Position numbers and translations under genes: made by a program. Positions 10,701 through 31,182 of a stretch of DNA of 34,924 nt are shown here, piece after piece (positions within the stretch are counted from its first letter, which is position 1; each line of letters starts with the position of its first letter). The notes beneath the pieces were generated by a model. It searched no databases. It saw only the letters and a list, made by a program, of their open reading frames with translations, and had not been told where the DNA came from. The stretch covers positions 1,355,991-1,390,914 of the forward strand of contig FN649730.1 in NCBI GenBank assembly GCA_000310025.1, in the 5' to 3' direction. The DNA is from Ectocarpus siliculosus. Lineage: Eukaryota > Sar > Phaeophyceae > Ectocarpales > Ectocarpaceae.

Positions 10701-12641
10701 AAGTGGGGTCACGCCCACTCTCTCCCCGTCCAGGACGCCCAGGTTAAGCAATCGCGTCCTCGCAGCGTCGGCGATAATGCGGCGGCTAAGAAAGCCGTAC
10801 GGCACGGGGGGGGCGCCGTCCAGACAATGGGTGACCAGCGGCCCCGCACTGGCGGTAGCTCTAACGAGGGCGAGGGGAAGGGGCCTACCGCGGCGGACGA
10901 AGGATTGTCCCAAGCCCATGCGGATGCCGGTTCGGTCCACAAGCCGGCGGAGGCGAGCCACCGCGACAATACCAAGCCCAAAACGACGACGACGGGGGCG
11001 AGCAGGCACAAGCGGTCCGTGAGCAGCGGTCACGGAGGCAGCGCCGACGTCTCCCACATGTTGACGGAGTCCTCCTTCCCCTCCATCGCCACCGTGGAGT
11101 ACAACAAGGACACGTGGGGCGCCACCGCCGACACCCCGGGCACCGGCCGCGGACCTGCCATCAGCCCCTCCGCCGTATTCACGCCGCTTGCCGCTAGAGG
11201 TCGCTCGTCCGACAGCAGCCCTGCCGGCGCCGCTACGCCTACCGGCACCGCTAGGCCTACTGGCGCTAGGACAGCGGCCTCCACAGGGTACCGAAGGTCG
11301 GCCACCGTGGGAGCCGCGGACGACCTCCCCGCTGCCGCCCGACTCCCGAAGGCGGCGGCGCTCAGGGGAAGCCGAACCCCGCGGGGCCGTGACGAGTGCC
11401 TGCCGACCTACACCGACGCCTGCCTGCACTCCAAGCCGCGCAGCCGCGGCGGCCGCAAGCCGTTCGGCAAAGGGTCGTGGTGGGACGAGATCGACACAAC
11501 CGCGGCGTCGACCGGTCGCGGCGGCGCTGTTGCCGTTACCGGCGGCGAGGCGACAGCGAGGTTTCGCCCGTCGCCCGTCAACACCACAGACCTCTCCCGC
11601 GATGACGGCGGTAGCACCGCTCCTGCGGCAGCTGCTTCTGCTGCAGCTGCTTCTGCTGCGGGAGAAATCACAACAAGGACGGCGTCCGGCGCCGTGACAT
11701 CGTACCCCTCTCCGTGGCAGCGCCGACCGAACGCGCAGGTTATCCTCAGCCCGCTGAGCTCCACGATGTCGGGGAAGAGTTCGGCGTGCGGCAGCGGGGT
11801 TAACCCTACCAAACCGGCTGCGCACGAAAATGAATCCACGGCGGCGATGTCGAAGAGCGGGGCCGGGGGATCCGGTGGGGGCCGGAGAGAGACCCTCAAG
11901 CCCAAGATTAAGGAGCAGTTTTCTACCGAGGGGCTGTTCGGGACGCCCGCAAGGGTCTCCCGGAAGCCGGCGACCGCGGGCGATACGCCCCCCGGCGGCG
12001 ATGAGGGGACCGGCCGCGTGGCTGAAGTGTCGCCTTCGGAACCCGGGATTCTCGACAATCTGGACAACGCCCCCTCCTTCACAAGAACCTTCAGGTCGCT
12101 GTCGAGCGGTACCCTTGAGTGGGAGTCAGGCAGGAGCTTCGGTGCCCTGGGCTGCGACGCGAAGATCAGCTTTTTCCCTGAGGGTTTGTCGTCGGTGCGC
12201 TCGCCGGCCGGCCTGGTCGCCGCGTCTACCGCCCGCGGCGGCGGCAGCGGCAGCGGCTCCAATAGCCTCGGCAGCGGCGGTAGCGACGCGATTGGCTTCA
12301 TCGGCATCTCCAGCGAAGGGACCTTGCACGGAGGCGGCCTTAATCGCGCGAGAGGCGGAGGTGCTGGCAGCGAAAAGAGCGAAGTGAGCCGCGGAGGTCT
12401 GCTGAAGCGCAGCAGGAAGGACGTCATCGCTCACTATATGAACGGGCTCCGGCGGGACCGCGTAGAATCTTTCGAGCCGAGCGCTGAGTTTTTCCGGCCG
12501 TTCGAGAGGTCTGACGCTAAGCCCGTTGGGAGTCAACCGCCTGCGGCAACCAGGGGAGCGGGAGATAAGACAGCGCCTGCCCAGGCTAAGGCATCAGCCG
12601 CGGCTCGCCAGAGTCGCTGGGCGAGGCTCCCGACCTTCTGA
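1333..12641 (+). CDS. Receptor-like multi-pass membrane protein with Pmp-type beta-helix ectodomain (3' part of gene, 11 exons)
   Basis: Predicted exons are 1333-1416, 1996-2111, 2885-3236, 4479-4732, 4988-5135, 6151-6297, 6473-6765, 7525-7749, 8794-9150, 9398-9649 and 10062-12641 (stop TGA). All have GT donors and AG acceptors. Codon phase matches at every junction, giving about 1600 residues in one frame. Domain order is beta-helix repeats of the chlamydial Pmp type (about residues 1-265), a Cys-rich EGF-like/GCC2-GCC3-like stalk (about 270-390), about eight hydrophobic helices (about 395-770), then a roughly 830-residue low-complexity tail. The first exon starts in phase 1, so the start codon and probably a signal peptide lie left of the window. 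The layout suggests a plasma-membrane receptor or adhesion protein with outside N-terminus and inside C-terminus; the role is inferred, the ligand unknown. Similar beta-helix plus multi-TM proteins occur in stramenopiles. Exon calls are strong; missing small exons cannot be excluded. Confidence 0.85.
1400..1645 (+). repeat. Decayed tandem copies of exon 1 end and its splice donor
   Basis: The end of exon 1 and start of intron (cagctgtacgagaac... ending 'ggag|gtaatt', about 1379-1422) reappears at about 1504-1548 as 'cagctgtaccggaacaaatc' running into 'ctgaggtaatta', and as a shorter fragment (cagctgtgtgcatacgag) at about 1625-1642. Flanking 'ggccct.tggg' blocks repeat too, so the unit is about 110-125 bp. 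The second copy has an in-frame TGA before its donor-like site, so it is a relic and not an alternative exon. Confidence 0.75.
2385..2466 (+). repeat. Dispersed repeat copy with C-rich tail, intron 2
   Basis: This copy has the core 'ggacgcgtggtcaatggtct' followed by 'acccgct', 'atgcaaaacatgag', 'gtac' and a run of Cs. The same core occurs twice at 7367-7497, and a weaker form near 300-385. The core 'tggtcaatggtct' resembles a tRNA A-box, so a tRNA-derived short interspersed element is possible, but I see no B-box at a fixed distance and the family remains unassigned. Confidence 0.6.
4055..4342 (+). repeat. Intron 3 tandem duplication and GGT microsatellite
   Basis: A unit of about 145-150 bp ('gtgttggattttg', 'gctgttggtagtggtggtggta', 'ttcttcgtggtgatg') occurs at about 4061 and again at about 4211. 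The second copy ends in an uninterrupted (ggt)n run at about 4312-4339. Related 'gatggt..atcgacggttgtt' pieces lie at 3288-3308. Everything lies inside the 1242-bp intron 3 and is not coding. Confidence 0.7.
4988..6520 (+). CDS. Exons 5-7 (start): Cys-rich EGF/GCC2-GCC3-like stalk
   Basis: Exon 5 (4988-5135) encodes a Cys-rich acidic segment with CRFGLVCSRC and CASEC. Exon 6 (6151-6297) encodes 'LPGYYRSS' followed by Cys-rich spacing 'ECFYEDACEGG' and 'YCAAGYTGP'. Exon 7 continues 'YCAVCTAGFSPGYFHSCKSC' just before the first membrane helix. The pattern (G-Y-W/Y-R, then C-x5-C-x-G-G, then G-Y-x-G-P-x-C-A-x-C) is common in large stramenopile and ciliate membrane proteins, where it resembles EGF-like and ephrin-receptor-like (GCC2/GCC3) folds. 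Its place between beta-helix and membrane fits an extracellular disulfide-bonded stalk. The Tyr before CAVC is made by the exon 6/7 splice (T + AT). Confidence 0.75.
5137..5345 (+). repeat. Intron 5 degenerate tandem repeat
   Basis: Three diverged copies of a 'cgtagtggtaaacccgctc' and 'ttgggtta' unit followed by 'gctgtgtc' occur at about 5146-5200, 5209-5265 and 5305-5345. They lie just behind the exon 5 donor at 5136. No coding potential was seen. Confidence 0.55.
6473..10145 (+). CDS. Exons 7-11 (start): multi-pass membrane domain, about eight helices
   Basis: Hydrophobic segments occur in exon 7 (FYVVSAVGVLVLLAVVFMAA, then LTAIKIVVVVWQIV at the exon end), exon 8 (LLLTTICPAVVLGLLGCTYLV), exon 9 (SVALFIMFVIYATVSYTIF and YAGLMILVYPVGIPCVFGWW), exon 10 (QVAIVLLLAIVFMVVSEFL and YVVFASMYLALLLRV) and the start of exon 11 (VLVIAHAAMLLVVVLQGLLI). 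Loops carry features typical of one conserved family: 'VEYPGAYKDFL' with 'NLDLGF' in exon 8, 'VCDPLDDG' with 'LRSDYSLTC' in exon 9, 'PYKPSTYYYE' at the exon 9 end running into 'VVECFRRIALTG' of exon 10. I do not assign channel or GPCR activity: no pore motif or DRY-like motif is visible. Confidence 0.8.
7367..7497 (+). repeat. Two dispersed-repeat copies upstream of exon 8
   Basis: Two head-to-tail copies of the 'gaggacg.gtggtcaatggtct' repeat lie at about 7367-7430 and 7435-7497. The second ends in a C-rich tract only about 30 bp before the exon 8 acceptor (7523-7524), so the repeat now forms part of the pyrimidine-rich acceptor region. A (tgt)n microsatellite lies in the same intron at about 7066-7087. 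Confidence 0.65.
7724..7827 (+). repeat. Four 26-bp tandem repeats that copy the exon 8 end and splice donor
   Basis: Units are 7724-7749, 7750-7775, 7776-7801 and 7802-7827, each ending 'aagag' before a GT. The first unit is the coding end of exon 8 and the other three are in the intron. Possible donors therefore exist at 7750, 7776, 7802 and 7828. Only the first keeps the frame without a stop into exon 9 (8794). Use of 7776 shifts the frame by 26 nt, and reading beyond meets TAG at 7777-7779. Confidence 0.85.
10062..12641 (+). CDS. Exon 11: last membrane helix and long disordered C-terminal tail
   Basis: This single 2580-bp terminal exon starts after an unusually long T tract (10046-10058) and acceptor 'ctag', with Val-Phe-Ser-Gly, and ends at TGA 12639-12641. 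After the last membrane helix the product is about 830 residues rich in Ser, Gly, Ala, Thr, Pro and basic residues, including an Ala-rich run near 11622-11665 and a Gly/Ser run near 12235-12290. It is probably disordered and cytoplasmic, with many possible phosphorylation sites. Near the end (about 12415-12515) is a segment of normal composition, with 'DVIAHYMNGLRRDRV' followed by 'FEPSAEFFRPFERSD', which may be a conserved peptide for partner binding. Long open frames on the opposite strand here follow from GC-rich codon use. Confidence 0.85.
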   Translation, partial: VFSGVLVIAHAAMLLVVVLQGLLIFAGWGDLVETPGALANLDDTAFVSKRGGSLSDGDVDEARDGGHYRGYLRYGNAPAWGGDTRGFDEMINNPQSLRENNRPSTFSTGAAAERGKRWEIWERPLPKARSSFFPSPTGTKRKVVPEADAGRSRDDLSVRGVKGRPSPEVSRSNSWTSSTGGDASPSTVVYQAATPNKVAAGEEDRIRSRANPKKWGHAHSLPVQDAQVKQSRPRSVGDNAAAKKAVRHGGGAVQTMGDQRPRTGGSSNEGEGKGPTAADEGLSQAHADAGSVHKPAEASHRDNTKPKTTTTGASRHKRSVSSGHGGSADVSHMLTESSFPSIATVEYNKDTWGATADTPGTGRGPAISPSAVFTPLAARGRSSDSSPAGAATPTGTARPTGARTAASTGYRRSATVGAADDLPAAARLPKAAALRGSRTPRGRDECLPTYTDACLHSKPRSRGGRKPFGKGSWWDEIDTTAASTGRGGAVAVTGGEATARFRPSPVNTTDLSRDDGGSTAPAAAASAAAASAAGEITTRTASGAVTSYPSPWQRRPNAQVILSPLSSTMSGKSSACGSGVNPTKPAAHENESTAAMSKSGAGGSGGGRRETLKPKIKEQFSTEGLFGTPARVSRKPATAGDTPPGGDEGTGRVAEVSPSEPGILDNLDNAPSFTRTFRSLSSGTLEWESGRSFGALGCDAKISFFPEGLSSVRSPAGLVAASTARGGGSGSGSNSLGSGGSDAIGFIGISSEGTLHGGGLNRARGGGAGSEKSEVSRGGLLKRSRKDVIAHYMNGLRRDRVESFEPSAEFFRPFERSDAKPVGSQPPAATRGAGDKTAPAQAKASAAARQSRWARLPTF

Positions 12642-15715: not shown

Positions 15716-15780
15716 CTAGGGGCAAGGGGTGCAGTCATCGCAGTCTCCGCAACCGCGGCAGATCTGGCCCAGGCCGAAGT
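15716..15780 (-). CDS. Modular protein exon 9: terminal half-module and stop
   Basis: This 65-bp exon follows acceptor 'ccgcag' and encodes FGLGQICRGCGDC, DDCTPCP, then TAG at 15718-15716. It completes the sixth Cys module, so the protein ends right after the last CP with no membrane anchor or GPI-like hydrophobic tail. That supports a released or wall-bound protein. Confidence 0.85.
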
Positions 15781-18700
15781 CTGCGGAGGGTAGAACGCGA
15801 AGCAAGGGCGGAATAAAAGGTACGGCGAGGGGAAAAGGGAGCGGAGGTGAAGATGGCGTGCTATGATGCTATACTGGGCGTGTCAGGACCATGCCCCTTG
15901 GAGGGCAGAATTAAAGTTGTTCGCCCAGCGAAGTATCGACGGAACTCGGTGGCCGAACGAACTATATGGCGATCGGATTGTTGTCTGACTCACGCCGTGA
16001 AGTGGTGTATCCTACTGTAATTTACCGGGCCAGCCCAGTTTCTGGGCGGGATAGGGCAGGAAAAAGTGCCCACCGATGGAAAGGGCGATGCCACACCAGA
16101 ACACCTTCTGTACACCGAAAACCTTGCACGCTTTTACTCGCGAAGCATTCTGCGGTCGCCTGGCAAGGCATTTGTGACCCCACACCATTCTCAACATTAC
16201 AAAGCAGTCGTTTTAGGAAACGGATTGTTACCTCCTTTCGACCTCACGTTTTCCAAGCGCAAACTTTGTAGCCCCATATAGTACCTTGTGTGAGAATATA
16301 GAAACGGAACGCGACCGGCTACAGAGACGACGAACACAGGCCTCGACGACGGGGGGCGATTGCTGAGGAGGACTCACAGTTGCAGTGGGCGATGTCAGAG
16401 CTTCCGTCGACGCATCGGGGGTCGCAGATGATTTGCTTCCCGCCGTCCGGGTAGGCGGCCAGAGACTCCATCTGGGCCTCGGTGAGGTTCGAGCAGACGG
16501 AGCACTCGTCGTCGTCAACAGCACCGTCGGCTCCGAGCGGCATCATCGTCGGCGAGGGAGTAGGCACTTCGGGCTCTGGCGTCTCGGCAACGGTCGGCGG
16601 TGTGGTCTCCGGCGTCTCGGGGGAGGGCGTGTGCATCACCGGCTTAGCGGAAGGCGCGGGTGTCTCGGGCGTGACGGGGCTCGGAGTGAAAAGATCATCA
16701 AAGCCGAGGTCGGGCACCATCGTCGGTGAGGACGTTGTTTCGGGCGCGGGAGTTGCCCCTGGGCAAGGCTCGCAGAGAGAGCATTCGCCGCAGCCCCTGC
16801 AGATCTGTCCCAGGCCGAAGTCTGGGTGGAGCGAATGGATTTCGGGCGGTGAAATGTGGGCACGGGAGGGTCTTTGTTAGGTGGCGTGTTTTTCCCGAGG
16901 CGGTGACACCGAATATGATCGTGGCCGTGTGTTAAGATGCACAGCATATCCGCGATGCTACAAGTCAGCGGATATGCTGTACATCTTAACACGGTGGCCC
17001 ACGCTCTAGACTAGCTGGCAGTGCCCCTCTTTTCGATTAGCTTTTTCCTTCCGACCGTGTTCGCTCGATACTTTGTTCCCCGCAATACACCATCTGTCTC
17101 ATCGCCGTGCGGTCTCTCACGCCCACCAGCAATTCTAAGGATGATCATTAGCGGGCGCGAAGCATGCCCGTCTTCAAATATTTGGCACGCTTTGGAACAT
17201 GAAACAGTCGCTAGCAGTGGCGAGGGCAACACTTTTCTCGGAGGTCAACGGGCCGGAGCCGAAAATTCAATTTTACTCCGAACCCCCCCTCGACTCACAG
17301 TTGCAGTGTAGAGGGTCGGTGACGCCGTCCAAGCAGGAAGGGTCACACACCACCTGCTTCCCGCCGTTGTCGTAGCTGGCCAGAACCGCTACTTGCTCGT
17401 CTGTCAGGTTCGAGCAGACGGAGCACTCGTCGTCGTCGACAGCACCGTCGGCTCCGAGCGGCATCATCGTCGGCGAGGGAGTAGGCACTTCGGACTCTGG
17501 CGTCTCGGCAACGGTCGGCGGTGTGGTCTCCGGCGCCTCGGGGGAGGGCGTGTGCATCACCGGCTTAGCGGAAGGCGCGGGTGTCTCGGGCGTGACGGGG
17601 CTCGGAGTGAAAAGATCATCAAAGCCGAGGTCGGGCATCATTGTCGGTGAGGATGTGGTTTCGGGCGCGGGGGTTGTCCCCGGGCAAGGCTTGCAGGACG
17701 AGCATTCGCCGCAGCCCCTGCAGATCTGTCCCAGGCCGAAGTCTGGGTGGTGCGGGTGGAGATGTGGCGGGGAAGCACGGAGAGCGGGGGACGTAGTAGT
17801 TAGACGGCGTTGTTGTACCTGTCGGCGACACAAGAGACCTGTGTGGGCACTTTGAACTATCGACAGAGGGAGGAAGACTGACTAGCGAACAGTCAGGTGC
17901 TTACAGCATAGGAACACCTAGAATGGCAGAAACATAACATAGTCTTTTTCGGAGACAGGGATAAAAAAAGCACTCGAATAGCATTGGACAACGTCGCGAA
18001 AGTTGACGAGAAGATCACATTGTTGGCAGGGAAAAGGTGGTTGGGGTTGTGAGAGACTGGAAATGGCTCACCCAATAAGCTATGGGATGACCGGAAACTT
18101 GTAAATCGCGTCGAGAGCACTCTCGCTCGCGTGCAACTGCCTGCGCTCGCAGCACTCTCGTTGAAATTGTGTTTTTGTCTTTCGTTTTTCCCTCTCTGTG
18201 TGTGCGTCGTCGGTGTACGCGGCGGTCTCTGTTGTTCTATGTAGTGCGCCTCTGTCAGTGCATCACGCTGCTTTTCTTCTGGCCGCCTTGGCCTGCGGAC
18301 TTCGCGGCCGAGGCCCACACTCCAGCTGGCGGTGCCGCAAAATTCAAGATCAATCTGAACCTCCCCGACTCACAGTTGCAGTGCAGAGGATCGGTGACGC
18401 CGTCCAAACAGGAAGGGTCACACACCACCTGCTTCCCGCCGTTGTCGTAGCTGGCCAGAACCGCTACTTGCTCGTCTGTCAGGTTCGAGCAGACGGAGCA
18501 CTCGTCGTCGTCGACAGCACCGTCGGCTCCGAGCGGCATCATCGTCGGCGAGGGAGTAGGTACTTCGGGCTCCGGCGTCTCGGCAACGGTCGGCGGTGTG
18601 GTCTCTGGCGTCTCGGGGGAGGGCGTGTGCATCACCGGCTTAGCGGAAGGCGCGGGTGTCTCGGGCGTGACGGGGCTCGGAGTGAAAAGATCATCAAAGC

Positions 18701-21700
18701 CGAGGTCGGGCATCATTGTCGGTGAGGATGTTGTTTCGGGCGCGGGGGTTGTCCCCGGGCAAGGCTCGCAGGACGAGCATTCGCCACAGCCCCTGCAGAT
18801 CTGTCCCAGGCCGAAGTCTGGGTGGTGCGGGTGGAGATGTGGCGGTGAAGCACGGAGAGCGGGGGGACGTAATTGTTAGACGGCGTTGTTGTACCTGTCG
18901 GCGACACAAGAGACCTGTGTGGGCACTTTGAAACTATCGAAGACTACTCAAAACGTCCGAACGGGCACTTTGCAACCATCGGAAGAGCTGTCAGGTGCTT
19001 TTAGCTAAAGGAACACCAACGCTGGGTGAAACATAATACAGTCTCTTTCAGAGACAGGGATTGGAAAGTAACCCGAATAGTATCGAACGTCGCGAAAGTT
19101 GACGAGAAGATCACATTGTTGGCAGGGAAAAGGTGGTTGGGATGGTGCTCGAAACGGCTCACCCAATAAGCTATGGGATGACCGGAAACTTGTAAATCGC
19201 GTCGAGAGCACTCTCGCTTGCTTGCAACTGCCTGCACTCGCAGCACTCTCGTTGAAATTGATTTTCTGTCTGCCCTTGATCCTCTTTCTCTCTGTGGATC
19301 GTCTGTCTACACGGCGGTCTCTTTGTTGTTGTAGTGCGTCTCTGTCTGAGTATCGCGCTGCTCTGCTTCTGGCCGCCTTGGCCTGCGATTTTCACGGCCG
19401 AGACCCACACTCTAGCTGGCGGTGCCGCAAAATTCAGTACCACTCCGAACCCCCCCTCGACTCACAGTTGCAGTGCAGAGGATCGGTGACGCCGTCCAAA
19501 CAGGTAGGGTCACACACCACCTGCTTCCCGCCGTTGTCGTAGCTGGCCAGAACCGCTACTTGCTCGTCTGTCAGGTTCGAGCAGACGGAGCACTCGTCGT
19601 CGTCAACAGCACCGTCGGCTCCGAGCGGCATCATCGTCGGCGAGGGAGTAGGTACTTCGGGCTCGGGCGTCTCGGCAACGGTCGGCGGTGTGGTCTCCGG
19701 CGTCTCGGGGGAGGGCGTGTGCATCACCGGCTTAGCGGAAGGCGCGGGTGTCTCGGGCGTGACGGGGCTCGGAGTGGTAAAAAGATCAAAGCCGAGGTCG
19801 GGCTCCATCGTCGGCGAGGGGGTAATCGCTTTGGGCGCAGGGGTCTCGGCAACGGTCGGCGGTGCGGTCTCCGGCGTCTCGGGGGAGGGCGTGTGCTTCA
19901 CCGGCTTAGCGAAAGGCACGGGTGTCTCTGGCGTGACGGGGGTCGGAGTGGAAGGATCAAAGGTGGTCTCGGGCACCACAGTCGGCGAGGGAGTAGGCAC
20001 TTCGGGCTCGGGCGTCTCGGCAACGGTCGGCGGTGCGGTCTCCGGCGTCTCGGTCGAGGGCGTGGACTTCACCGGCGCGGGTGTCTCTGGCGTGACCGGG
20101 CTCGGGGTGGAAAGATCATCAAAGCCGAGTGGTGCCGGTGAGGGTGCGGGTACGACTGGCGAAGGCGTTGCGTCCGGGCAAGGCTGGCACCACCCGTCAT
20201 CGCACTCTCCGCAGCCGCGGCAAATCTGCCCCAGACCGAAGTCTGTAAGGATTGGGAATCGAAACATCCGTGCGGCAAAAGAGAGAGTCACTAATGAGTC
20301 GAACATAGATTCCGGAGGCTTGGAACGGTGCGATGTGTTTTTCAACCTTAACCCCTTTCCCGGTTCCATGCGCCTAATGAAGCCTAATTTCATACGCAGA
20401 TCTCGTAGCATGTAAGGGGAGGCAATGTTTTCTCCAGGTATATGCACACCAATACACATACTTCCTCTGTATCATAAGTCTGGTCCGCTATGTGCGCGTA
20501 GTCGTAAGGGTACTTACACGTTGACGTTTAGCCTTTAGCCGGGTGCGTTAGAAAGGCAAAGCACATACCAAGCTGAATTAAAAAAAAAAAAAAACGAAGA
20601 CCGTGTTAGGCACTAAAATTAGGTCAAAATATGCCCATTTTGGCCCGTTTTGAGAATTTTTACGAGAACGTTTATGAGATTTTTTTTAATAATTCTTTGA
20701 GAATTCGTGAGATAAGTCGTGACTACCACCCCCCACACACTATACAAACGATGGATGACCCTAACCCTAACCCTTATACGACAAGGAGGCTTTCGAGAGG
20801 GCTCACGCCTGGATGGCATCGAGTCCCAGCGACGGCGAGGACGACTAGTCGACATTTTTCCCCCCGACACCAACAGACACTTTTTTTTTACCCGCAAGTG
20901 TCTTGGCTTTAGTGTGGGCTCCCCAAGTGTCTTGTTTTTAATGCGGAACCCCAAGTGTCTTAGTTTTGGTGTGGGGTCACTACTATACTGGTTTAAGTAT
21001 AGCGGGACGCGACGTAGATCGTTGAGTAGAGGGGGGGGGGTTCGGGCCCTACTCTGTTGTTTTTTTGCCCCGCAAAGTGTCTTGGTTTTAGTGTGGGACC
21101 CCAAAGTGTCTTGAATTTAGTGTGTGGGTCACTATTATTATGGTTTTAGTATGGGGGACGTGTTATGGATGGTTGAGTCTAGGCGGGGTTAGCTTTAGGG
21201 TTGGGGATAATTCTTGTGTTTTTTTTGGGGGGGTTTAGGCCAGTGCCCCACCTACCCCTCCCCCTGGAAATGGGCAAAATATGGCCGTTTTTGGGCCGAC
21301 TCAATGTTTTCCGGCCGTTCAGCCGCATGGTTCAAGCACCAGCTCTAAAAAAAACAAACTTTTTCTTGCTAAAAAAACACCGGAGAATTCAACAAAAAAA
21401 ACGAAAAACAGATCGGGCACCGTTAAGGGGGCGCATAAACCTAACGGACCAGACTTATGATACAGAGGAAGTAGAAGCAATTTTTTTTGTGTTGGAGGGT
21501 GGATGAAGCAGGGCACCTTGTCGAGCCGTTTCACCGACAACGAGCGACAACGTGCCAATGGTGCGCGTTAAAAATCAGATCCTACGGAGTGCCGTGTGGG
21601 AGAATGAAGCTTTTGACCCAGTGTTAAATACAGGGGTGGTTGCGATAGAAAGGCCTTTTCTCTGTCGCGTCCTCTACTGCTTCTACTATTTTACTAATTC

Positions 21701-24700
21701 TTGCATTGGTCGTCGATGCCTACGTTGAAAAAACGTTGGTCTACGAGAACTATATAATAATGTGCATGGTCTGTTCAGTCAAACCACGGCGCGCCCAAAC
21801 GAGGTAATCTACTGACGGTACACTGGCGAATCAATCCATACATCTAGATCCACCCCGAAAGTAACGTGAGGCGCCACCTTTCTGGTCTTAGAGTAAACGC
21901 AAGCAGCAGGTCTCTCTCACAGTTGCAGTGAAGGACGTCGGCGGCTTCGCCCACGCAGGCGGGGTCACACACGATCTGCTTCACGCCCTTGTCGTCGTTG
22001 ACCAGGGCCTCGGCATCTTCTTCCGATACCTCCGAGCATACGGAGCAGTCGTACTGATTTTCGTCCAAGTCAAGCCCAGGGACGAATGGGGCCGGCGTGC
22101 TGCCGACAGGGGCCGTTGTCGGTGGAGTAGTCTCAGGGATCTCCGTAACGGGGGCCGGGGATGGTTCGGGTGTCGTCGTCGGTACCGGCGTGGCTACGTC
22201 GACAGGGGCCGTTGTCGGTGGCGTGGTCTCAGGAGTCTCCGTAACGGGGGCCGTTGTCGGTGGCGTAGTCTCAGGGATCTTCATAACGGGGACCGTTGTC
22301 GGTGGAGTGGTCTCAGGAGTCTCCGTAACGGAGGCCGTTGTCGGTGACGTAGTCTCAGGGGTCTCTGTAGCGGGGGCCGTTGTCGGTGGAATAGTCTCAG
22401 GGGTCTCCGTAACGGGGGCCGGGGATGGTTCGGGCGTCGTCGTCGGTACCGGCGTGACTACGTCGACAGGGGCCGTTGTCGGTGGCGTGGTATCAGGAGT
22501 CTCCGTAACGGGGGCCGATGTCGGTGGAGTAGTCTCAGGGATCTTCGTAACGGGGGCCGTTGTCGGTGTCGTAGTCTCAGGAGTCTTCGTAACGGAGGCC
22601 GTTGTCGGTGGCGTAGTCTCAGGGGTCTCTGTAGCGGGGGCCGTTGTCGGTGGAGTAGTCTCAGGGGTCTCCGTAACGGGGGCCGGGGATGGTTCGGGCG
22701 TCGTCGTCGGTACCGGCGTGACTACGTCGACAGGGGCCGTTGTCGGTGGAGTGGTGTCAGGAGTCTCCGTAACGGGGGCCGTTGTCGGTGGAGTAGTCTC
22801 AGGGGTCTCCGTAATGGGGGCCGTTGTCGGTGTCGTAGTCTCAGGGGTCTCTGTAGCGGGCGCCGTTGTCGGTGGCGTAGTCTCAGGAGTCTCTGTAGCG
22901 GGGGCCGGGGATGGTTCGGGGGTCGTCGTCGGTGACGGTGTGGCTACGTCGACAGGGGCCGTTGTCGGTGGAGTGGTGTCAGGGGTCTCCGTAACGGGGG
23001 CCGTTGTCGGTGACGTAGTCTCAGGGGTCTCTGTAAAGGGGGCCGGGGAAGGTTCGGGTGTTGTCATCGGTGATGGTGTGACTACGTCGGGGGCAAGCGT
23101 CGTGGCGGTGGTCGGCGACGGAGTCTCTGGCGAAGGCGTGTCCTTCACTGGCGCAGAGGAAGGTGCTGGCGTCTCGGGGCTCGGAGTCTCGGGGAGGTCA
23201 CCCTGGGGCTCTGTCGGTGACGGTGTTGCTACGTCGGGCACAAGGGTCGCGGCATTAGTCGGCACTGGGGTCACGGGCGCGGGAGTGTCCTTCACTGGCG
23301 CGGAGGAAGGCGCCGGCGTCGCGGGGCTTGGAGTCTCGCGGTCGTCCAGGTCTGTCCCGAAGGTCGGCGACGGTGTGCTTTCGTCCGGGCAAGGCTGGCA
23401 GTAGCCGTTGTCGCATTCTCCGCAGCCGCGGCAGATCTGTCCGAGGCCGAAGTCTGCGCGGGGGTGGACGAAAGGCGATGGAAAGGGGGGCGTAAGGATT
23501 TTTTTGGGGAAGGTCGGCACGGAAGTCTATGCGGTGAAAGCTGATTTTTCAATGGGAGGATCCGTTACTGTCGAAAGTCATGACGGCAGATGGATCAGGG
23601 GAGGTGGGGGCGTAAAGATTTGTTGGGGAAAAGTCGGGACGGAAGGCTTGCGGTGAAAGCTGATTTTTCAATGAGAGGACCCGCTACTATCAAACGACTT
23701 GGCGGCAGAGGAACATGACTACTGTACAACCCCTCTGTTGAGCAGGATATGATCATGTATGTAACGGAAATATCGGATCATTGGGTTTGCCTACACTCTC
23801 TCCGGCTCTCTACCCCGTTTGCATCTTTTAAAAAGAGCGCTAGATTGTAGTGTTTGGGGACATAGTGCAGCTTGAGGACTGCATAGGCATTGCCATACAG
23901 GAGTGCTCCTCGTAAGTCTACGCCCTATACTGCTAGGGTTGGCAGATGTTGTTGATGGTGCTCAAGCCTAATGGGGGACCACCCAAGCAATCGTTCGGAA
24001 ACAAGGTCCTAACCCTAACCCCAACCACAAATTAGCCGATTCTTCGCGTTATCCAGGATGTTTGCTCCATAGGAAAACCTACGTAGACTGCAGTATTGGA
24101 AACAAGGCTATTGGTGGACCGCCCAAGCAATGGTTCGGAAGCATTTCGAAACGCTGATGAAAGATGAAAAAGTCGCTTTAGTTCCCACTCACAGTTGCAG
24201 TGAGTGTTGTCGGCACCGTCGACATTGCAGGTCGCGTCGCACACGATCCGCTTCACGCCGTGGGTGTCCGTGATGAGGGCCTCTTCCTCAACGGACGACA
24301 GGTCCAAGCAAGCAGAGCAGTCGTCTTCATCATCATCATCAGTGTTGTCCTCGTCGAGATTCACCTCTACCTCTGACGGAGATGCTGCGTCCGTTTTGGT
24401 CGGGGAGGGGGTGGACTCATCAGCCGCAGGCGCCGCCGTAGTACCCTCGTCTTCCTCCACGTCCTCGGGCGCTGCTGTCGGTGCCGGCGTGACGTCGCCA
24501 GCGACGCCGCCATCGTTTTCGTCAGCGGTGGCGGGAGTTTCGCTTGCGTTGACCGTCTCGATCGGAGAAGGGGTGGTCCCGCGGAGCTTGCGCCCGAACG
24601 AGATAGCGGCGGCGGACCTGGACAACACGAAAATTTGGGCCCCGACCGGGGGGCGGGAAGCAGGAGCAGGGATAAGACTTAGTGGGGGGCGGAATCGTAC

Positions 24701-26375
24701 GGCGCAAGACAGCTGCTAATTTCGCCCCCAAGGCGAAGCACAAGCACGGGCACACGCCCAGCTACTAAATAGTCTCGTAGCGGATTGCTTCTCGTTTGAT
24801 GTCAGGGCGGAGTGGTTTTCATGTAGTTCCATCGGTGCGTTTTGTGTCCAAGAATTGAGTGACGTTGACAATGCACGCCTCCGAATTATGTGCATGTATG
24901 TCTGGTTTTCGCTTGAGTGTGTCGTTGGGCCTATCTACAAGCGGCGAATGGCGGCAGTGATAGACTCATTCATTCTTGGAAGGCAAACCGTCGTCAAGAA
25001 TCGATGCCATCCTCCCGACGTGTATACAGTCGAGGCTATAACCGCGGATTAAAGCGTGACGGGTACCGATCACACTGTTGTAGTCAAGAAGCTGAACGTT
25101 TCCGACCATCAAGGGGCCGACAACGTGTTTGTTTGTACTAGAGTCATTCGGCTTTCGTCTACCACGTTGAGGGAGCGCCCGGCACGGGCAGTTTGCATAC
25201 GAGAGAGGGTCTACGAAGTGTTTTTGTTTCGGGGCGTGTTCTTGAAATTGTAGAGGACACCTGAACGAACCAAGCACAATACACACGGGCAGAACTATCT
25301 TGAAGCTATGGGTATGATGAGTAGAGAGGTAGGGGCAAACAACAACTTACACGCCACACTCAACTGCAAAGAGCTCCGCTAGTTTCGATAAGTTGTGCTT
25401 GGGTGGTGGCGAGAAGCGTACCAACGGATAGTGGTTGAGAAACATTTCTTCGTCTCGTTTCAGCGTTGCAGCAGTTCGCATCAATGGTCAAGCAGTACCC
25501 AAGAATCCCGATACTCGTGACACAGAGTACCAGAACATGGGAGAGTGGAGCGGCGGGGACGGCCGGGTGGGGTGGGGGGCTCAAGATAACTCGAACCGTC
25601 GCCACAAAGACCCACACGGGAACAGAGATGGAGAGAGAGCGGAACCATAGTCAGAGTTTCCCGGCGCTGATGATGCTGCCCTTACCGGTTGGCGTCGTTG
25701 CACTCAGGAACAGTCCAGGGGCCTCGAAGAGAGCCGCCAGAACCGAGGATGGCTTGGCCGTCGGCGAGTCCGGTAGTGTCGAGGATAACGGACAACTCCA
25801 GGTGGTCTTCGGCGAGGAATGTTACCTGAACGATTCACGATGACAGAGGGCAAAGACCAAGGAAGGGCATAGAATGAAGGGAAGGGGTCTTCCGTGTTTG
25901 GTGACATGATTGTGAAGAATGTGAGAGCTAAAGGAATTATTCATGGAAGAACTAAATTAAAAGTGGTGTCACGCACGGGCGGTTCGTCTCTGACGGGGGC
26001 CAAATTTTCTGACCGCGCGAGGGGAGGTGAGGGTACTGCTGCGCGGTTGGCGTACAATCCGAAACGGAATTTCAAGAGGGCACGATTGATTGCGGTTCGA
26101 GAAGGGCGTGTATTGGAGAGAAAAAAAGCAAAGCACGGGTACACGCGGCCGGACAGCAGCAACAATAACTACACCACCAAAATACTATGGTCACCTTGTT
26201 GTTGTCGACCTCGCCACCTTCGCGTAGCAGGTGGAAGGTCGAGGTAACCGGCGCGTTGAACTCTAAGCTGACGGGTTCTCCAGGGGTGTTGCAGGGTCCT
26301 GAGTCGTCGGCGTTCACGCACAAACGCGTGGCGAGTAGGAGGACAGCGAAAAGGTCAAGCTTGAGTAGGTTGCAT
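15716..26375 (-). CDS. Secreted modular protein: Thr/Pro-rich linkers alternating with six copies of a Cys-rich module (9 exons)
   Basis: Exons in gene order are about 26375-26195, 25825-25686, 24617-24193, 23453-21921, 20242-19466, 18817-18374, 17742-17299, 16821-16378 and 15780-15716 (stop TAG). Splice phase matches at every junction. The product is about 1480 residues if the start is at 26375. Order is signal peptide, a domain of about 95 residues without known relatives to me, then mucin-like linkers rich in TPSP, PETP and TTAP, broken by six Cys modules, the last ending the protein. Each module has the pattern C-x2-C, a helix-like stretch, V/I-C-D-x2-C, then HCNC joined by splicing to YFGLGQICRGCG, two more Cys pairs and CP. 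Secretion and a cell-wall or matrix role with O-glycosylated linkers are inferred. It resembles in style, not by proven homology, arabinogalactan- or mucin-like proteins. The initiator region has a one-base problem. Confidence 0.85.
16378..16821 (-). CDS. Modular protein exon 8: 444-bp repeat exon, diverged half-module
   Basis: The opening half is as in exons 6 and 7 (SLCEPCPG), and the linker is nearly identical. The closing half-module is clearly diverged: NLTEAQMESLAAYPDGG, QIICDPRC, DGSSDIAHCNC. The upstream intron also differs from that of exons 6 and 7. So the exon is either an older duplicate or a mosaic, with conserved linker and separate module end. The splice donor is AACT|gtgagt. 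Confidence 0.85.
16929..16992. repeat. Near-perfect hairpin in the intron between exons 7 and 8
   Basis: Arms at 16929-16953 and 16968-16992 are 25 bp each with one mismatch (gtgttaagatgcacagcat... against ...atgctgtacatcttaacac), with a 14-base loop. It may be a tiny palindromic transposon remnant or an RNA hairpin. It is absent from the sister introns. Confidence 0.8.
17299..17742 (-). CDS. Modular protein exon 7: 444-bp repeat exon
   Basis: This is a near-identical sister of exon 6. It has SSCKPCPG in place of SSCEPCPG, 'PSPEAPET' in place of 'PSPETPET', and the same CSVC, QVVCDPSC and HCNC half-module. Phase 1 at both ends means that loss or gain of this exon leaves the frame intact. Confidence 0.85.
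18374..18817 (-). CDS. Modular protein exon 6: 444-bp repeat exon
   Basis: It has FGLGQICRGCGEC with SSCEPCPG, a linker ending in 'TPSPTMMPLG', then DDDECSVCSNLTDEQ, QVVCDPSC and HCNC, with donor AACT|gtgagt. It has the same length and phase as exons 7 and 8, and differs from exon 7 by only a few bases. The flanking intron sequence is shared as well, so the duplication included the intron. Confidence 0.85.
19466..20242 (-). CDS. Modular protein exon 5: 777-bp repeat exon
   Basis: It opens with FGLGQICRGCGEC and DGWCQPCPD, then has a linker with three diverged copies of a block containing 'PSPVTPETPAP', 'HTPSPETPET' and 'PPTVAETP', then the half-module DDDECSVCSNLTDEQ, QVVCDPTC, HCNC. The last roughly 330 bp (19466-19795) are nearly identical to the matching parts of exons 6 and 7. 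It is phase 1 at both ends. It looks like the source form from which the 444-bp exons arose, or a 444-bp exon with an expanded linker. Confidence 0.85.
20759..20776 (+). repeat. Telomere-like CCCTAA repeats inside the TA-flanked element
   Basis: Here lie nearly three CCCTAA units. A mirrored, imperfect TTAGGG-like stretch (ggggttagctttagggttgggg) lies at about 21184-21206, near the other end of the same element. Another short run (cctaaccctaacccc) lies at 24008-24022 in a different intron. Confidence 0.65.
20890..21195 (+). repeat. Internal tandem repeats of the TA-flanked element
   Basis: Five copies of a roughly 26-30 bp unit (aagtgtctt, ttttagtgtgggac, cccca) occur at about 20897, 20926, 20951, 21076 and 21103. 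They are arranged as two blocks, each closed by a shared tail 'tcactattat..tggttttagtat' and 'ggttgagt.tag'. The pattern is non-coding. Confidence 0.65.
21921..23453 (-). CDS. Modular protein exon 4: 1533-bp repeat exon with expanded Thr/Pro mucin-like linker
   Basis: The exon opens with the second half-module (FGLGQICRGCGEC, NGYCQPCPD), then has about 440 residues of linker, then CSVC, a Glu/Asp-rich helix, KQIVCDPAC and HCNC. The linker is built from a unit of about 12-14 residues (TETPETTPPTTAPV and variants). These are grouped into larger blocks of about 88 residues marked by 'TTTPEPSPAP' (marker positions on DNA near 22160, 22423, 22687, 22910 and 23045). The 1533 bp are a multiple of three with phase 1 at both ends. 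Every residue type needed for dense O-glycosylation is present. The opposite strand is also open here for 435 codons, an artefact of the repeat. Confidence 0.85.
23483..23715 (-). repeat. Tandem duplication of about 122 bp, intron between exons 3 and 4
   Basis: The block 'gggggcgtaaggattt', 'ttggggaa', 'gtcgg.acggaag', 'gcggtgaaagctgatttttcaatg' and 'gaggatccg' at about 23485-23600 recurs at about 23605-23715 with a few changes. A separate short repeat 'cccaagcaat.gttcggaa' lies at about 23980-24000 and 24121-24140 in the same intron. Confidence 0.7.
24193..24617 (-). CDS. Modular protein exon 3: acidic Pro/Thr linker and first half of Cys module 1
   Basis: It starts after 'gttgtccag' and completes an Arg codon, then SAAAISFGRKLRG, a linker with TPSP, TPAP and acidic stretches (NLDEDNTDDDDEDD), then the first half-module: CSAC, EEEALITDTHGVKRIVCDATC and HCNC. 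The exon ends AACT|gtgagt in phase 1. This is the most diverged half-module of the array (RIVCDATC where later ones have QIVCDPxC) and it has no preceding FGLGQ half, so it marks the start of the array. Confidence 0.8.
25686..25825 (-). CDS. Modular protein exon 2: N-terminal domain
   Basis: This exon has acceptor 'ttcag' and a phase 0 start (VTFLAEDHLELSVILDTTG, then GQAILGSGGSL and VPECNDAN), and donor CG|gtaagg in phase 2. Joined to exon 1 it gives a short, probably beta-rich extracellular domain with one Cys on each side (SGPCN in exon 1, PECND here) that could form a disulfide. I do not recognise the fold. Phase 2 at its end fits exon 3 exactly, which starts with one base completing Arg. 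Confidence 0.75.
26195..26375 (-). CDS. Modular protein exon 1: signal peptide and start of N-terminal domain, start codon apparently out of frame by one base
   Basis: In the open frame this exon reads NLLKLDLFAVLLLATRLCVNA, a classic signal peptide with likely cleavage after VNA, then DDSGPCNTPGEPVSLEF and on to the donor (AAC AAG|gtgacc) at 26194. The only nearby ATG (minus strand 26375-26373) directly precedes the Asn codon but is separated from it by one extra base (plus position 26372). From that ATG the frame stops after five codons. Without the extra base the Met would start the signal peptide directly. So either the sequence has a one-base error, the allele is broken, or a short upstream exon supplies the Met. 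The frame itself is open to a TAG upstream near 26450 with no in-frame ATG. Confidence 0.65.
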
Positions 26376-29300
26376 GTTTTAATGTTGGGGCAATGGGAGT
26401 CAGGGAGTTGTTTTGAATAAAAATATACTAAATAATAATATAACTATTAGGAAATAAATACACACACAGAAAAACTACCCGGCCCGTTCTCTAATGCGTC
26501 TACTTCCAGCGGTCGCAAGCGAAGGTAGGTTTAGCCGAGGTGAGTTCGCGCAGCACGGCGGTACGGACGGAGAGAGAAATAGTAGCGATTGGGAATGCTA
26601 GACAGCGAGGAAGGCACGCAAGCACGGGAACGGGAGGTGGGGTGGTACCGTAGGATGTGCTGTAGATAAAAAACCTGCCTGGAATAATTTTTTCAGTATT
26701 GCAGACGATGGAAGGAAGTGTGGCCAGATTTGGTCAGCACGCACGCATGAATTTGTTGTCAATCTGCCGCCGGTAGTCAACGATCCTCATGTTCCGTCCC
26801 ACACGATTTGTTGTTGCTGCTATTGTCCTCGCAGCACAGAGAGAGCGTGCCGACCTCTGCTCTACTCGTATCAATCGTATCACCAGAATATTGAAAAAAA
26901 ATCGGTAGTCTTGGAGAGGTCTCGCTGCGATTGAGGTAATCTCGCATTTACTTCACAGACAAATAAATCCGGATGTACGTACTTAGTCTATTGTTACGTC
27001 ATCGTTGTAAAGGACTCGAACACGAGAAAACACTAAATAAAGCGGGCTATTTATTCTTCAGCACGTTGTTGTTGTTCGTTGACCATTAACAAAAATCTCT
27101 TCATTTTCTCCACACGCCGCACCTGCCGTACCACTGGAGCCCTGTCGGCGGCGGGGAGTTTTTCGTCCAGCCACCCGCAAGAAGTAAGTCACATTGTGCA
27201 TAAATTAGCGGCGGAGAACGGGAACAAGGGCTTTTTAATTGGCGAGAAGGTCCGCCATCAGGATGCCGTTCCACTCGAAAAAGAACAGTATTACAATCAA
27301 ATGTGGCTCTGTACTGATGAGTGCTGCGTACTGTAAGCTACATACATGAGCAGTCGATAGCCGGATGGTGCACGAGCGGGTTAATGTGTCCTAGTATGCT
27401 TAAGATGGTAGAGTTGCATCATCAGCAGTGCAACCGCGTAGTAAATAGTCGCCATTGGACGACGTGCAACCAAGGCTGGCATGTCAGCGAGCTAGGTATT
27501 AGACATGCGACGACCGTGGTGTACGGGTACGCTGCCTTCGAAGGGTACGCACAAGAAATTAGGCTGGATCCTGCATCGGTGAAGCTGGATCCTGCATCAC
27601 ATACAACCTGTCTTTCTGACACATCGCTGCTACACCACGTTTGCCCTCTCATTCTGCAGGATCCAGAGGCAACAAGCAGCAGCAACAGCAACTGACAAGC
27701 GCACCGGAGGCGATCCAATGGTCGATGCTCACCTGTGCCATAGTGAACGCAAACCTCGTCAATTTCTCGTGCCGAGATGAATCGCAGGTCGACGAGATGG
27801 CAACGTCCTCCATCTGGAGGCACGATCCTCGGATACCACCGGAGGATGCCCGTATGCTATTGGACCAACCCGCTACGGCCGGTACGGCCATAGTCAAGAC
27901 AGTTGTCCGCATGACGCCGGTGGTCCCTCCCTTGTAGACGATGTGTTGTTCTTGTGTGGAGGTTGTTGGATATAGGTGTGAGTGGGAGATGGGGAAGCCA
28001 AACTTTGTTCGCGTCTACAACATGATGATGGCAGGTAGGTGTGGTCAGCATGCTGCAATATCGTTTTACAAAAGTCAGAATATCCCGGCAAGCAAATAAC
28101 CTAACACACGTTGTTTACCGTTCGAATTTTATTACTCACCTTGTGGCAAACACAAGAAGTAGCGAGAAGAGATTCTCACAGCAACTGATCGTTTATGTGT
28201 ATCCGATCTTTCTTTGTCTGTAAGAGGGGGCCGACGGGTATTTTTCGGATAGGTTGATCGTTCAGGGGTATTTGGGGTATGCAGTCTGCGCGGTCAGAAT
28301 GGTCCAACATACCCCGTGCCACACACAGATGAGACAATATCAGGCGATCATCGCTGTACGTTTTACACCTCGATTGCTCCGAGGTTGACACATACATCAT
28401 ACCCCATCTACTACTACTGCTGCTGCACTACAACGTACTGCTGTATACACGCGTCCCGCACATTTTACGCAAAGAACAACTGCTGACACCAACACACGAT
28501 GAATCCGACTGTGCGCCAACAAGATACTGCTGTAGCACGCAGTCAGCCTGTTTTGCATCTCTATGTATACGCTAAACAGAAGGCCGTGTACGTGCATCGT
28601 CACCGCGGGTTGCTGTATAACCCCGCCCAGCACCGTATCCTTCATATAAAGCGCGCGACATCACAGACACAGCACCCCATGGCGAGCACAATACTATGCA
28701 ACACGACAACAACCAGAGCACCGGCAGAGGATCAGCAAGCGTACCTGAGCATGGAGCAATCTGTGTGAAGATCCCTACGGCCCAGCAGGTGGTGTGTAAG
28801 GTGCTGGCGCTGGTTCCGAGAATTTGAATGGACCCCCGTGACGTTTGCGTGACGGTACACCGCCCCCGTCGAGCCCCAAGTGTCAACATTTGCGTGCCCC
28901 CCTGGAAGATTCCATAGGGTACATTGTGTTGTGCGAAGTGGCTTACGCTGTGCAGCGAGGGACGCTGTCCTCTCGAGCTGCTGGCATTGTTCATGCGAGG
29001 TGTAGGTAGGGTAAACACAGAGTGATTTATTATCCACACTCAGACGCCCAAGCTGTCTTCACCTGACGGTTACAGACTTGGAAACACGCCTTCACAATAC
29101 TGCACAGAACCCATGCAGTAGAACCAGTCGTTCTTGTACACAAATACTCCAACACATTGCATGATGTATGTGTAGAGTATCCAGGTGGACACCATCAGTG
29201 GAATGCAAGACTTCGCAGGCCTGCCCGCCGTTCCACTACTAACAGGGCACCGAAAAAGGTGCCTGGAAAACATGAATGTGTCACGTAATTCGCTTCTATT

Positions 29301-30147
29301 GAAGTCTCCAAAAGTTGTGATCACCGCGTGCAGTCTCGATACTCGTTGAATCCAATGTTTGGGTATACAGACGCGGCTGTGATTGGATTGAACCGATCGC
29401 GTACGTGATGTAAGGATGCCGTACGGTTGCAGCTCTCCAGAAAATAGCCTCCGCATTCTTGTTGATTCATCTTGCTCAAAAAGCACCTGCGGTGAACGAC
29501 ATCATTGAGATGAAACTAGATTGGCGTCAATCGTACTGGAGTCTAAACGGGACGGCGCAAAAAGACCGACTCCTGGGAACTTATGTAGTCTATGCGTACT
29601 CGGCGAAGACACCATCGTGTCCAAATAGCAAAATAGTAACAAGTTGTGCATAAAAATCCACGGATACATCGAACTCAGGGTACACGCACGGCATGAGAGC
29701 TCAAAATATCTAGTGCAAAGAGTACCCAACTACACCGAGCACGATGATGATGCGCTTCACGCCCGCCCGTGAAGAGCTACATTTTCTGTCCCACGCTGAG
29801 AGTGGAGTACTAGGATATGTGTTTTCGTCCTATTTATTATGGCGACAGTCCCCCCATTTTTCGTGGTGAGACGTGACACTTTTCATGTAGAGTCTATACA
29901 AGTAGAGTACATAATCGGTACGTATGCATGCTACTTTTGGGTTGTCAAAGATATTGTTGCTACAGACAACAGGGAGTTTAGTGGCTGATTTCGCTCGTTT
30001 CACCTTTGTTTGGTCGGATCCCATCAGCGAGGAATGATGATGTGACCATACGCGACGATAGGCAACCAACAGACCGGCGTTGCGGTACACAAGGCTTCGT
30101 CTCCGTCGGTGGCACCACAAGCACTTTTGGGGTGATCGTCGTGTAAC
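26376..30147. other. Intergenic region between divergent genes
   Basis: This is 3.77 kb between the apparent start of the minus-strand modular gene and the start of the plus-strand helical-repeat gene, so it should hold both promoters. 26400-26470 is strongly AT-rich. The part 27540-27670 has a 'gctggatcctgcatc' direct repeat (about 27560 and 27585) and its partial inverse near 27655. One weak two-exon plus-strand candidate is listed separately. Other open frames, for example 29070-29486 on the minus strand, have no recognisable features. Confidence 0.5.
27125..27937 (+). CDS. Weak candidate two-exon gene fragment
   Basis: A segment at about 27119-27184 ends before a good donor (gcaagaa|gtaagt). 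A second segment, about 27660-27937, starts after a good acceptor (ttctgcag) and runs open to TAG. In one frame the two are phase-compatible, giving 'WSPVGGGEFFVQPPAR' joined to 'SRGNKQQQQQLTSAPEA', then 'PRIPPEDARMLLDQP' and a C-terminus VVPPL. No start codon, no known domain and no homolog is evident to me. It may be a small gene, a retroelement scrap or chance. Confidence 0.2.
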
Positions 30148-31182
30148 ATGGAAACAACGGCAGCCTCCTCGACATGGCAGATAGAGCAAGTCGCGGCGTT
30201 GCTGGCTGTTGAACTCCTCGGGGATGAGAATAATTATCCCGATGATGCCAAGGATTCGCGTACTCGCAAAATACAAGTATTTCCATCCTTGGAGACCCTC
30301 GTGGCCATGTGTCACCGCGCAAGAAACAGGGTAAGAAAACCACTTTGTCCAAGGGGCGAAACCAACTCCTGCAGGGTCAAAGCCGACAACTCCGAGACAC
30401 TTCGAACACCCCAGGCAACGGACAGCGTTCTCTATCTTCCCTACGGCTGTGAAGATGGGCTATCGATCAGCGTCGTGTTGAAATCAATCGCGGTGCTAGT
30501 TGGAGCCGACGTTCTACATGAGCCACCTCCCGCTATTACCGCAATGCATACTGAGGTCTACGCGAGGGACTTCGCTCACGAAAACAGGCCGCAAACGATA
30601 CCCTTCGACGACTCCGACGAGACCAGACACGGGCAGCTGTTGTATCGCTTGAGGTCGTCCCCGTCGCCATGGCGATCTGCGGGCAACATGGATGGCGGCA
30701 ACAACCCCCATATTCCATCGGAACAAGAGCAAGACCGGCAACCGTTGCCCTCGCTACCACCACCGCCGCCGGTTCCACCGTCCACGGACGCGGTGTCGGC
30801 AGGGGCGAGGTGTACCGATGCTAGCATTGTGTCTGGGTCCATGGGTCAACTGGCTAATGAACAGGATTTATCTCTGCCGCAGATGCCGACTGTGAACGTC
30901 GTATCGCCGGCTGGGAAGGTGGTAGGTTCGCTGGCAACACAAGCAGAGATCTGCGGCCTCCGCCGAAGCAATACCCGCCAAGCAAGTAAGGAGAGTTCAA
31001 CGATCGACAAGGACACCTCCAGGCGGGTTCTTTATGAACGATTATTGAGCTTGTTGCTAGGGCTATTTGAGAACGAGGAGGAGAGCCCGACGGAGCGCAA
31101 AGGAGAAAAAGTTATGCTTCAGGGAGAAGGAGGCAACATAAGCCACAGCTCGGACGCGGAAGAAAGAATAGATCTTGTTTGG
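30148..31182 (+). CDS. Helical-repeat gene exon 1
   Basis: It begins METTAASSTWQIEQVAALLA, continues through a conserved-looking part (LPYGCEDGLSISVVLKSIA, then LVGADVLHEPPPAI) and a Pro-rich loop near 30750-30785, and reaches a helical part with RRVLYERLLSLLLGLFENEE. I end it at TGG|gtgaga (31182). The frame stays open to 31293, so a later donor (CAC|gtgctg at 31278) is possible and would add 'FARAIASSSLRCRRQFL', which also looks like a helix. A gtaaga...tgcag pair at 30331-30374 is only 44 nt and would break the frame, so I treat it as exonic. Confidence 0.65.

Follow-up and report, generated by a model that had tools for sequence, protein, structure and literature searches.

Six ten-cysteine modules on a probably secreted, mucin-like protein of Ectocarpus siliculosus

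A gene for a mucin-like protein, in which six modules of ten cysteines each alternate with linkers rich in Thr and Pro, was identified on the minus strand of a 34,924-nt stretch of the Ectocarpus siliculosus genome (assembly GCA_000310025.1, contig FN649730.1, positions 1,355,991 to 1,390,914; hereinafter referred to as the window). Between 24617 and 15716, seven predicted exons join into 1,377 codons and a stop with zero internal stops, so that the six modules stand on one frame, as the original prediction from the letters of the window had proposed. The module is shared with two further genes of the same genome, is constrained at the protein level, and is carried on exons that have been duplicated. 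It had no match to a named family in the libraries searched, and the protein is interpreted below as a putative component of the extracellular matrix.

Gene structure and the six modules

At the junctions of the seven core exons (exons 4 to 10), the donors read AACT/GTGAGT (slash, splice site; GTGAGA in one case) and the acceptors CAG/ACTTCGG, and it is on these splice signals and the reading frame that the exons are predicted to be joined as modelled. Because the frame of exon 4 (24617) lacked a start codon, and because three upstream stretches (27912-25686) matched a paralogous gene on contig C28 in the same order and with comparable splice sites, the start of the gene is placed upstream of 24617. 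The exons of the model are listed below in the order of transcription, with lengths in nucleotides (nt) and amino acids (aa); the E-values given for exons 1 to 3 refer to a comparison of the window and C28 regions alone.

27733..27912, minus strand: exon 1 (probable); ATG and hydrophobic N-terminus MRTTVLTMAVPAVAGW..., phase 0 end at CAG/GTGAGC; aligned with the first exon of the C28 paralogue (39% over 70 positions, E 1e-5), both ending Q/GTGA
26195..26298, minus strand: exon 2 (probable); PGEPVSLEFNAPVTSTFH...DNNK; matched in C28 at 51% across 35 aligned positions (E 2e-7), with a shared DNNK/GT donor
25686..25825, minus strand: exon 3; VTFLAEDHLELSVILDTTGLADGQAILGSGGSLRGPWTVPECNDAN plus 2 bases, phase 2 end; C28 match 60% over 43 positions, E 3e-17
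24193..24617, minus strand: exon 4; acidic 100-aa stretch and N-terminal part of module 1; open frame; donor AACT/GTGAGT
21921..23453, minus strand: exon 5; Thr/Pro linker of 446 aa, with an in-frame 42-nt minisatellite, between the end of module 1 and the start of module 2; donor AACT/GTGAGA
19466..20242, minus strand: exon 6; linker of 194 aa between the end of module 2 and the start of module 3; 777 nt, phase 1-1
18374..18817, minus strand: exon 7; linker of 85 aa between the end of module 3 and the start of module 4; 444 nt, phase 1-1
17299..17742, minus strand: exon 8; linker of 85 aa between the end of module 4 and the start of module 5; 444 nt, phase 1-1
16378..16821, minus strand: exon 9; linker of 85 aa between the end of module 5 and the start of module 6; 444 nt, phase 1-1
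15716..15780, minus strand: exon 10; end of module 6, with a TAG stop immediately after C-x-P-C-P

The phase 2 join of exon 3 to exon 4 was in frame in both genes (R-S-AAA..FGRKL in the window, R-T-AAAAYGRRL in C28). For the start of exon 2 there were two candidates, 26298, which needs phase 1, and 26359, which is in phase 0 and adds LDLFAVLLLATRLCVNADDSG.

The six modules were 65, 65, 63, 63, 63, and 63 aa long, somewhat shorter than the 65-70 residues first estimated. All 60 Cys of the core lay inside them, ten per module, leaving the linkers Cys-free. The pattern C-x2-C..G-x-K-x-(I/V)-(V/I)-C-D-x2-C..H-C-N-Y-F-G-L-G-Q-I-C-R-G-C-G-(D/E)-C..C-x-P-C-P was kept in 6/6 modules, and FGLGQICRGCG was invariant across all of them. 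The Cys pattern first proposed was thus retained except at H-C-N-C-Y, where TGT had been read across the donor AACT/GTGAG; splicing gives H-C-N-Y-F-G-L-G-Q. HCNC was therefore rejected as a readthrough of the GTGAGT/GTGAGA donor, which would also give an odd Cys count. In a ten-copy alignment drawn from the three genes, which holds fewer than ten independent copies since modules 3-5 are near-identical, six Cys and F-G-L were invariant, and the four-Cys tail R-G-C-G-x-C..C-x-x-C was absent or incomplete in both reduced copies. A tree of the modules supported the split of modules 1 and 2 from the rest, with 4/5 inner branches unsupported. Most likely, the ten Cys of each module form five disulfides.

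The inter-module linkers measured 446, 194, 85, 85, and 85 aa, so that the predicted Thr/Pro linkers were confirmed, with a range slightly different from the 80-440 residues given before. Their Pro/Ala/Ser/Thr content was 58-72%, and their alternation with the Cys modules bears out the mucin-like architecture. The core contained 202 [A,S,T,V,G]-Pro dipeptides against 269 Pro, and 215 acidic against 35 basic residues (net charge -180). The linkers are probably O-glycosylated, as judged from this composition. Within the long linker exon, a coding minisatellite with a 42-nt unit and longer periods of 138, 147, 222, and 264 nt was found at 22109-23338, and may be polymorphic in length. On the antisense strand, a frame of 448 aa was likewise open across the long linker.

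The original prediction also included a signal peptide. None was found at 24617, and the leader, as judged by hydropathy, is probably encoded upstream; it may lie in exon 1 (27912-27733), or alternatively in the stretch before 26298 if the acceptor at 26359 is used. For exon 1 of the window gene the best 9-aa hydropathy mean was 2.18, compared with 2.58 for the leader of the C28 gene and 2.49 for that of a second paralogue on contig C8. The 1,377-aa core contained no hydrophobic segment (best 19-aa window 0.8) and no tail past the last Cys, and by this measure there is no glycosylphosphatidylinositol (GPI) or membrane anchor. Secretion of the protein is likely, as judged by hydropathy.

Paralogues, exon duplication and coding constraint

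Each module half was used as a query against the 189-Mb assembly that holds the window (C5:1355991-1390914). The first half matched at 8 places and the second at 9, with six per half in the window gene, one per half on C28, one per half on C8, and an extra second-half match on C161. The eight first-half places were returned again when the query was the first half of the terminal C8 module. On both C28 and C8, the two halves occurred in order and with the same splice site. In the C28 gene, the N-terminal region is followed by about 1,000 aa of linker, in which Ala-Pro and Ser-Pro are abundant, and by a single terminal module of 10 Cys. In the C8 gene, the leader is directly followed by a reduced module (8 Cys) and then a second one (6 Cys), after which come Pro-rich and Gly-rich linkers; the terminal module is full, with 10 Cys and C-x7-C as its first pair. 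The window, C28, and C8 proteins all stop one residue past the last Cys of the terminal module. Two other candidates were rejected: the C161 match (E 0.25) was a weak single hit, for which the other module half was not listed and whose frame lacked FGL and RGCG, and a match on C2 (E 2.2) was also single and weak.

Constraint on the encoded protein was evident from nonsynonymous (dN) and synonymous (dS) divergence among the modules. dN was below dS in 15/15 pairs of whole modules (dN 0.014-0.36, dS 0.023-1.08), the pairs not being independent, and in 3/3 pairs of the 85-aa linkers. For module halves the same held in 29/30 comparisons; the exception was the first half of modules 3 and 4, where the sole change was non-synonymous. 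dN in the second half was 0.02-0.20 and was lower than in the first for 12/15 pairs, the 3 exceptions being pairs among modules 3-5, with few changes. Among the 11 rows of tandem repeats, which overlap with several per array and involve two exons and two introns, the 8 exonic ones had periods divisible by 3 and the 3 intronic ones did not. The modules are coding and constrained at the protein level.

An addition to the earlier picture was an intron within each module. It splits the module between the fifth and sixth Cys in 6/6 window modules, and a phase-1 intron stood at the identical codon in 8/8 full modules of the three genes, for which reason it probably predates the duplications. Exons 5-9 (1533, 777, 444, 444, and 444 nt) each had phase 1-1 and a length of 3n, and each internal exon thus begins with the C-terminal third of one module, continues through a predicted glycan spacer, and ends with the N-terminal two thirds of the module that follows.

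The exon units repeated at spacings of 921, 1,075, and 1,092 bp, and two of the introns between them were copies of each other:

18818..19465, minus strand: intron 6; 82% identical to intron 7 over its entire length, repeats spaced 1,090-1,091 bp
17743..18373, minus strand: intron 7; copy relation with intron 6, 82% whole-length identity

Since introns 6 and 7 were this similar throughout, at least one exon unit was duplicated along with its intron. The intron at 17298-16822 had only its first 46 bases in common with intron 6 (87%). Modules 3 and 4 differed by three changes in 189 bases and their linkers by six in 255. Across 17743-19465, the coding parts of two recent duplicate units were about 98% identical and the introns copied alongside them 82%. 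That the coding parts differ far less than the introns suggests homogenisation of the exons subsequent to duplication, with gene conversion as one possible route, or else constraint on them.

Because every donor fits every acceptor, skipping of any cassette exon would drop one linker and one module and leave the other modules whole. It is conceivable, though we consider it rather unlikely, that the gene works in this way as a splice-assembled cassette protein, in which skipping would yield strands with one to six modules and duplication would lengthen the strand.

Searches for relatives and proposed function

The claim that the module belongs to no named family held in every library searched. 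In Pfam, ten module copies with the correct junction gave best E-values of 0.092 (RecR_ZnF) and 0.11 (Metallothio_Pro), each for one copy, while no match at E<=1 was obtained for six pieces, among them two linker exons and the N-terminal region, or for three modules whose junction carried 2-3 wrong residues. In the pieces scanned, there was no match to PAN/Apple, CBM1, WSC, or other Cys-rich families of Pfam. The ten copies had no NCBIfam match to E 10 and matched four PHROGs families with one copy each (best E 0.16). Against the PDB, a six-copy profile gave 3 matches (best E 0.4; lysozyme, EB3) and a ten-copy profile none to E 10; as single sequences, module 6 gave one match (E 1.6) and module 1 none. 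The EsV-1-7/IMM motif, C-x4-C-x16-C-x2-H, had 0 matches in the 1,377-aa core. No description of the module was found in the literature searched, which covered few subscription journals and from which unpublished status does not follow. As far as these sequence comparisons reach, the module is new relative to the libraries searched, and the architecture is of a known kind.

Module 4 alone retrieved 33 sequences from the PDB, 27 of them mostly transcription activator-like (TAL) effectors, with whole-chain E-values of 7e-18 to 2e-12. The TAL effector (TALE) repeat is a tandem repeat of 33-35 aa, and LTDEQVAVLASYDNGGKQ in modules 3-5 (17300-17431, minus strand) resembles part of it, not significantly for any single repeat. 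Kinship was rejected: the scores sum a 21-aa resemblance (LTxEQV...AS..GGKQ) over the repeats, the 51-aa chain 2kq5 reached only E 1.0, and the match was absent with module 1 or 6 as query and with profiles. It was read as chance or convergence. Viral and bacterial origins were likewise set aside, as none of 58 pattern matches in viral contigs and none of 48 in prokaryote genome contigs was confirmed as a relative, in scans seeded by short exact peptide patterns that would miss distant relatives.

The original prediction proposed that six binding modules are set on a scaffold serving in the extracellular matrix, the wall, or adhesion. With confidence slightly above even, we infer a large, secreted, polyanionic matrix glycoprotein of the arabinogalactan protein (AGP)- or mucin-like kind, whose disulfide modules would serve as repeated binding or cross-linking points. 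In such a protein, a signal peptide and a short N-terminal domain would be followed by long acidic Thr/Pro/Ser/Ala linkers acting as extended, O-glycosylated spacers. The five disulfides of each module would hold a six-Cys core and a four-Cys tail, and the conserved Y-F-G-L-G-Q face, together with the acidic stretch before each module, might form a repeated contact site. The partner would most likely be a wall polysaccharide or another copy of the protein, and Ca2+ would be a plausible bridge at the contact because of the strong negative charge. Growth by duplication of class 1-1 exons would allow module number and spacer length to vary with the modules unbroken.

Several points weigh against this interpretation. 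Exon 1 of the window gene had the lowest-scoring leader of the three genes (2.18), and the stretch before exon 2 scored higher (2.79), so that the leader could lie there; the signal peptide was judged by hydropathy. The acceptors nearest the conserved part of exon 2 need phase 1 and exon 1 ends in phase 0, for which reason a small exon between the two may be missing; none was found by comparing the window and C28 genes. The first half of the module was moderately constrained among the old copies (dN 0.31-0.51 in 12 pairs, excluding those among modules 3-5). AlphaFold gave no fold (mean predicted local distance difference test score 44) for the exon 8 unit and four sister units, each entered as a contiguous exon unit rather than as a whole spliced module. 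O-glycosylation and Ca2+ binding are predicted from composition, and ten Cys with C-x2-C pairs could also bind metal.

The protein might instead be a chimeric AGP, with type-II arabinogalactan on linker hydroxyproline, the modules being mere folded spacers or anchors, and signalling or wall hydration being the main role. The composition and dipeptides of the linkers are in accordance with this, and such proteins are reported from brown algae, with developmental regulation in fucoid embryos (PMC8307928 and PMC11468063). However, the unchanged FGLGQICRGCG in 6/6 modules and the second-half dN of 0.02-0.20 go beyond what is expected of inert spacers, and the T-P-E and T-P-S pattern is equally mucin-like; we hold this account to be possible, at fairly low probability. 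A secreted metal buffer or metal-dependent cross-linker, with the modules as zinc or copper Cys domains, appears improbable. It would suit the spacings C-x2-C, C-x3-C, and C-x2-C-x2-C..C-x2-C and the weak Pfam matches, RecR_ZnF at E 0.092 and Metallothio_Pro at E 0.11, with one copy of ten apiece, but both matches are at chance level, RING-like and EsV-1-7-like spacings had 0 matches in the core, and an even Cys count in a secreted protein (10, with 8 and 6 in the reduced copies) favours disulfides.

Recent exon duplicates and the coding minisatellite in the linker suggest length variation, as would be expected if the protein were an adhesive or recognition protein of the gamete or zygote surface with module copy number varying among strains. 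We regard this as doubtful, since the recent 85-aa linkers, with dN below dS in 3/3 pairs, do not indicate positive selection. Tandem repeats and the open antisense frame over the long linker could also be expected of a decayed or mispredicted repeat array rather than a single working gene; with splice signals, frame, and 60 Cys intact, dN below dS in 15/15 module pairs, and a splice site shared by two paralogues, we give this very little credence.

Brown algae evolved complex multicellularity independently. To our knowledge, their wall proteins are little known relative to the wall polysaccharides, and the matrix glycoprotein proposed here, with a conserved and probably secreted Cys module in three genes, would provide a concrete candidate class of matrix protein.

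Other frames of the window and observations on the genome were as follows.

2501-12641, plus strand: neighbouring gene or genes with weak matches to the polymorphic membrane protein repeats of Chlamydia (E 0.009 and 0.0003) and to MASE3 (E 0.007), segments that appear membrane-spanning by eye, and a long low-complexity tail
30136-34309, plus strand: open frames of 385, 380, and 331 aa, with no Pfam match at E 0.01

Across the genome there were 87 exon-level matches to the chlorophyll-binding family PF00504, many of them clustered on C92, C232, C488, and C16 and a large number equal in score. One PF00504 protein aligned over all 181 aa to PDB 9ygv_17 (FCP17; E 7e-114), followed by FCPI-12 of 6ly5 and other fucoxanthin chlorophyll proteins (FCPs). 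From the full-length FCP17 alignment and the PF00504 matches, the source is identified as an FCP-bearing photosynthetic alga.

Comparison with known systems

Chimeric AGPs of brown algae were reportedly treated by Herve et al. in 2016. An AGP region is recognised by Pro, Ala, Ser, and Thr making up roughly half of its residues or more, with [A/S/T/V/G]-Pro dipeptides, and the inter-module linkers are of this kind. PMC8307928 and PMC11468063 report chimeric AGPs in brown algae, with regulation during the development of fucoid embryos. Stretches rich in Pro, Ala, Ser, and Thr next to other domains, in the same kind of organism, are common to these and the window protein, but the latter has no known domain and its modules are repeated six times.

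Diatom pleuralins are described in PMC4557024 as one N-terminal proline-rich domain followed by PSCD repeats of about 90 aa. They share with the window protein the setting of stramenopile wall proteins, a part rich in proline, and repeats of a Cys- and Asp-rich domain that is comparable in size, whereas the window modules, at 63-65 aa, alternate with Pro-rich linkers of 85-446 aa and so depart from the pleuralin layout. No PSCD-like match was found in the PDB profile searches to E 10, the presence of a PSCD chain in that library being unchecked. Oomycete CBEL combines CBM1 and PAN/Apple with a Pro/Thr-rich hinge, and no CBM1 is reported for Ectocarpus in PMC3532174. Cys-rich binding domains on a Pro/Thr-rich hinge in a stramenopile wall protein are common to both, but the window protein had no PAN/Apple or CBM1 match in Pfam.

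Animal gel-forming mucins alternate Thr/Pro/Ser regions with Cys domains and grow by tandem repeats. The window protein has the same alternation and mode of growth, but is far smaller, has another Cys pattern, and had no Pfam domain in the pieces scanned.

Exon shuffling is held in PMC8001218 to be practically restricted to animals, the domain types used being all class 1-1, with introns flanking the domains. The window exons resemble these animal modules in being symmetrical, with phase 1 at both ends and a length of 3n; in contrast, the intron lies inside the module and not at the domain boundaries. The evidence from the window is of tandem duplication within one small family, not of shuffling between unrelated genes. 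The permuted exon design bears on the restriction to animals claimed in PMC8001218. If the cassette interpretation were true, a system of class 1-1 exon cassettes for extracellular proteins would have arisen outside animals, within a further lineage of complex multicellularity, and with an undescribed module fold.

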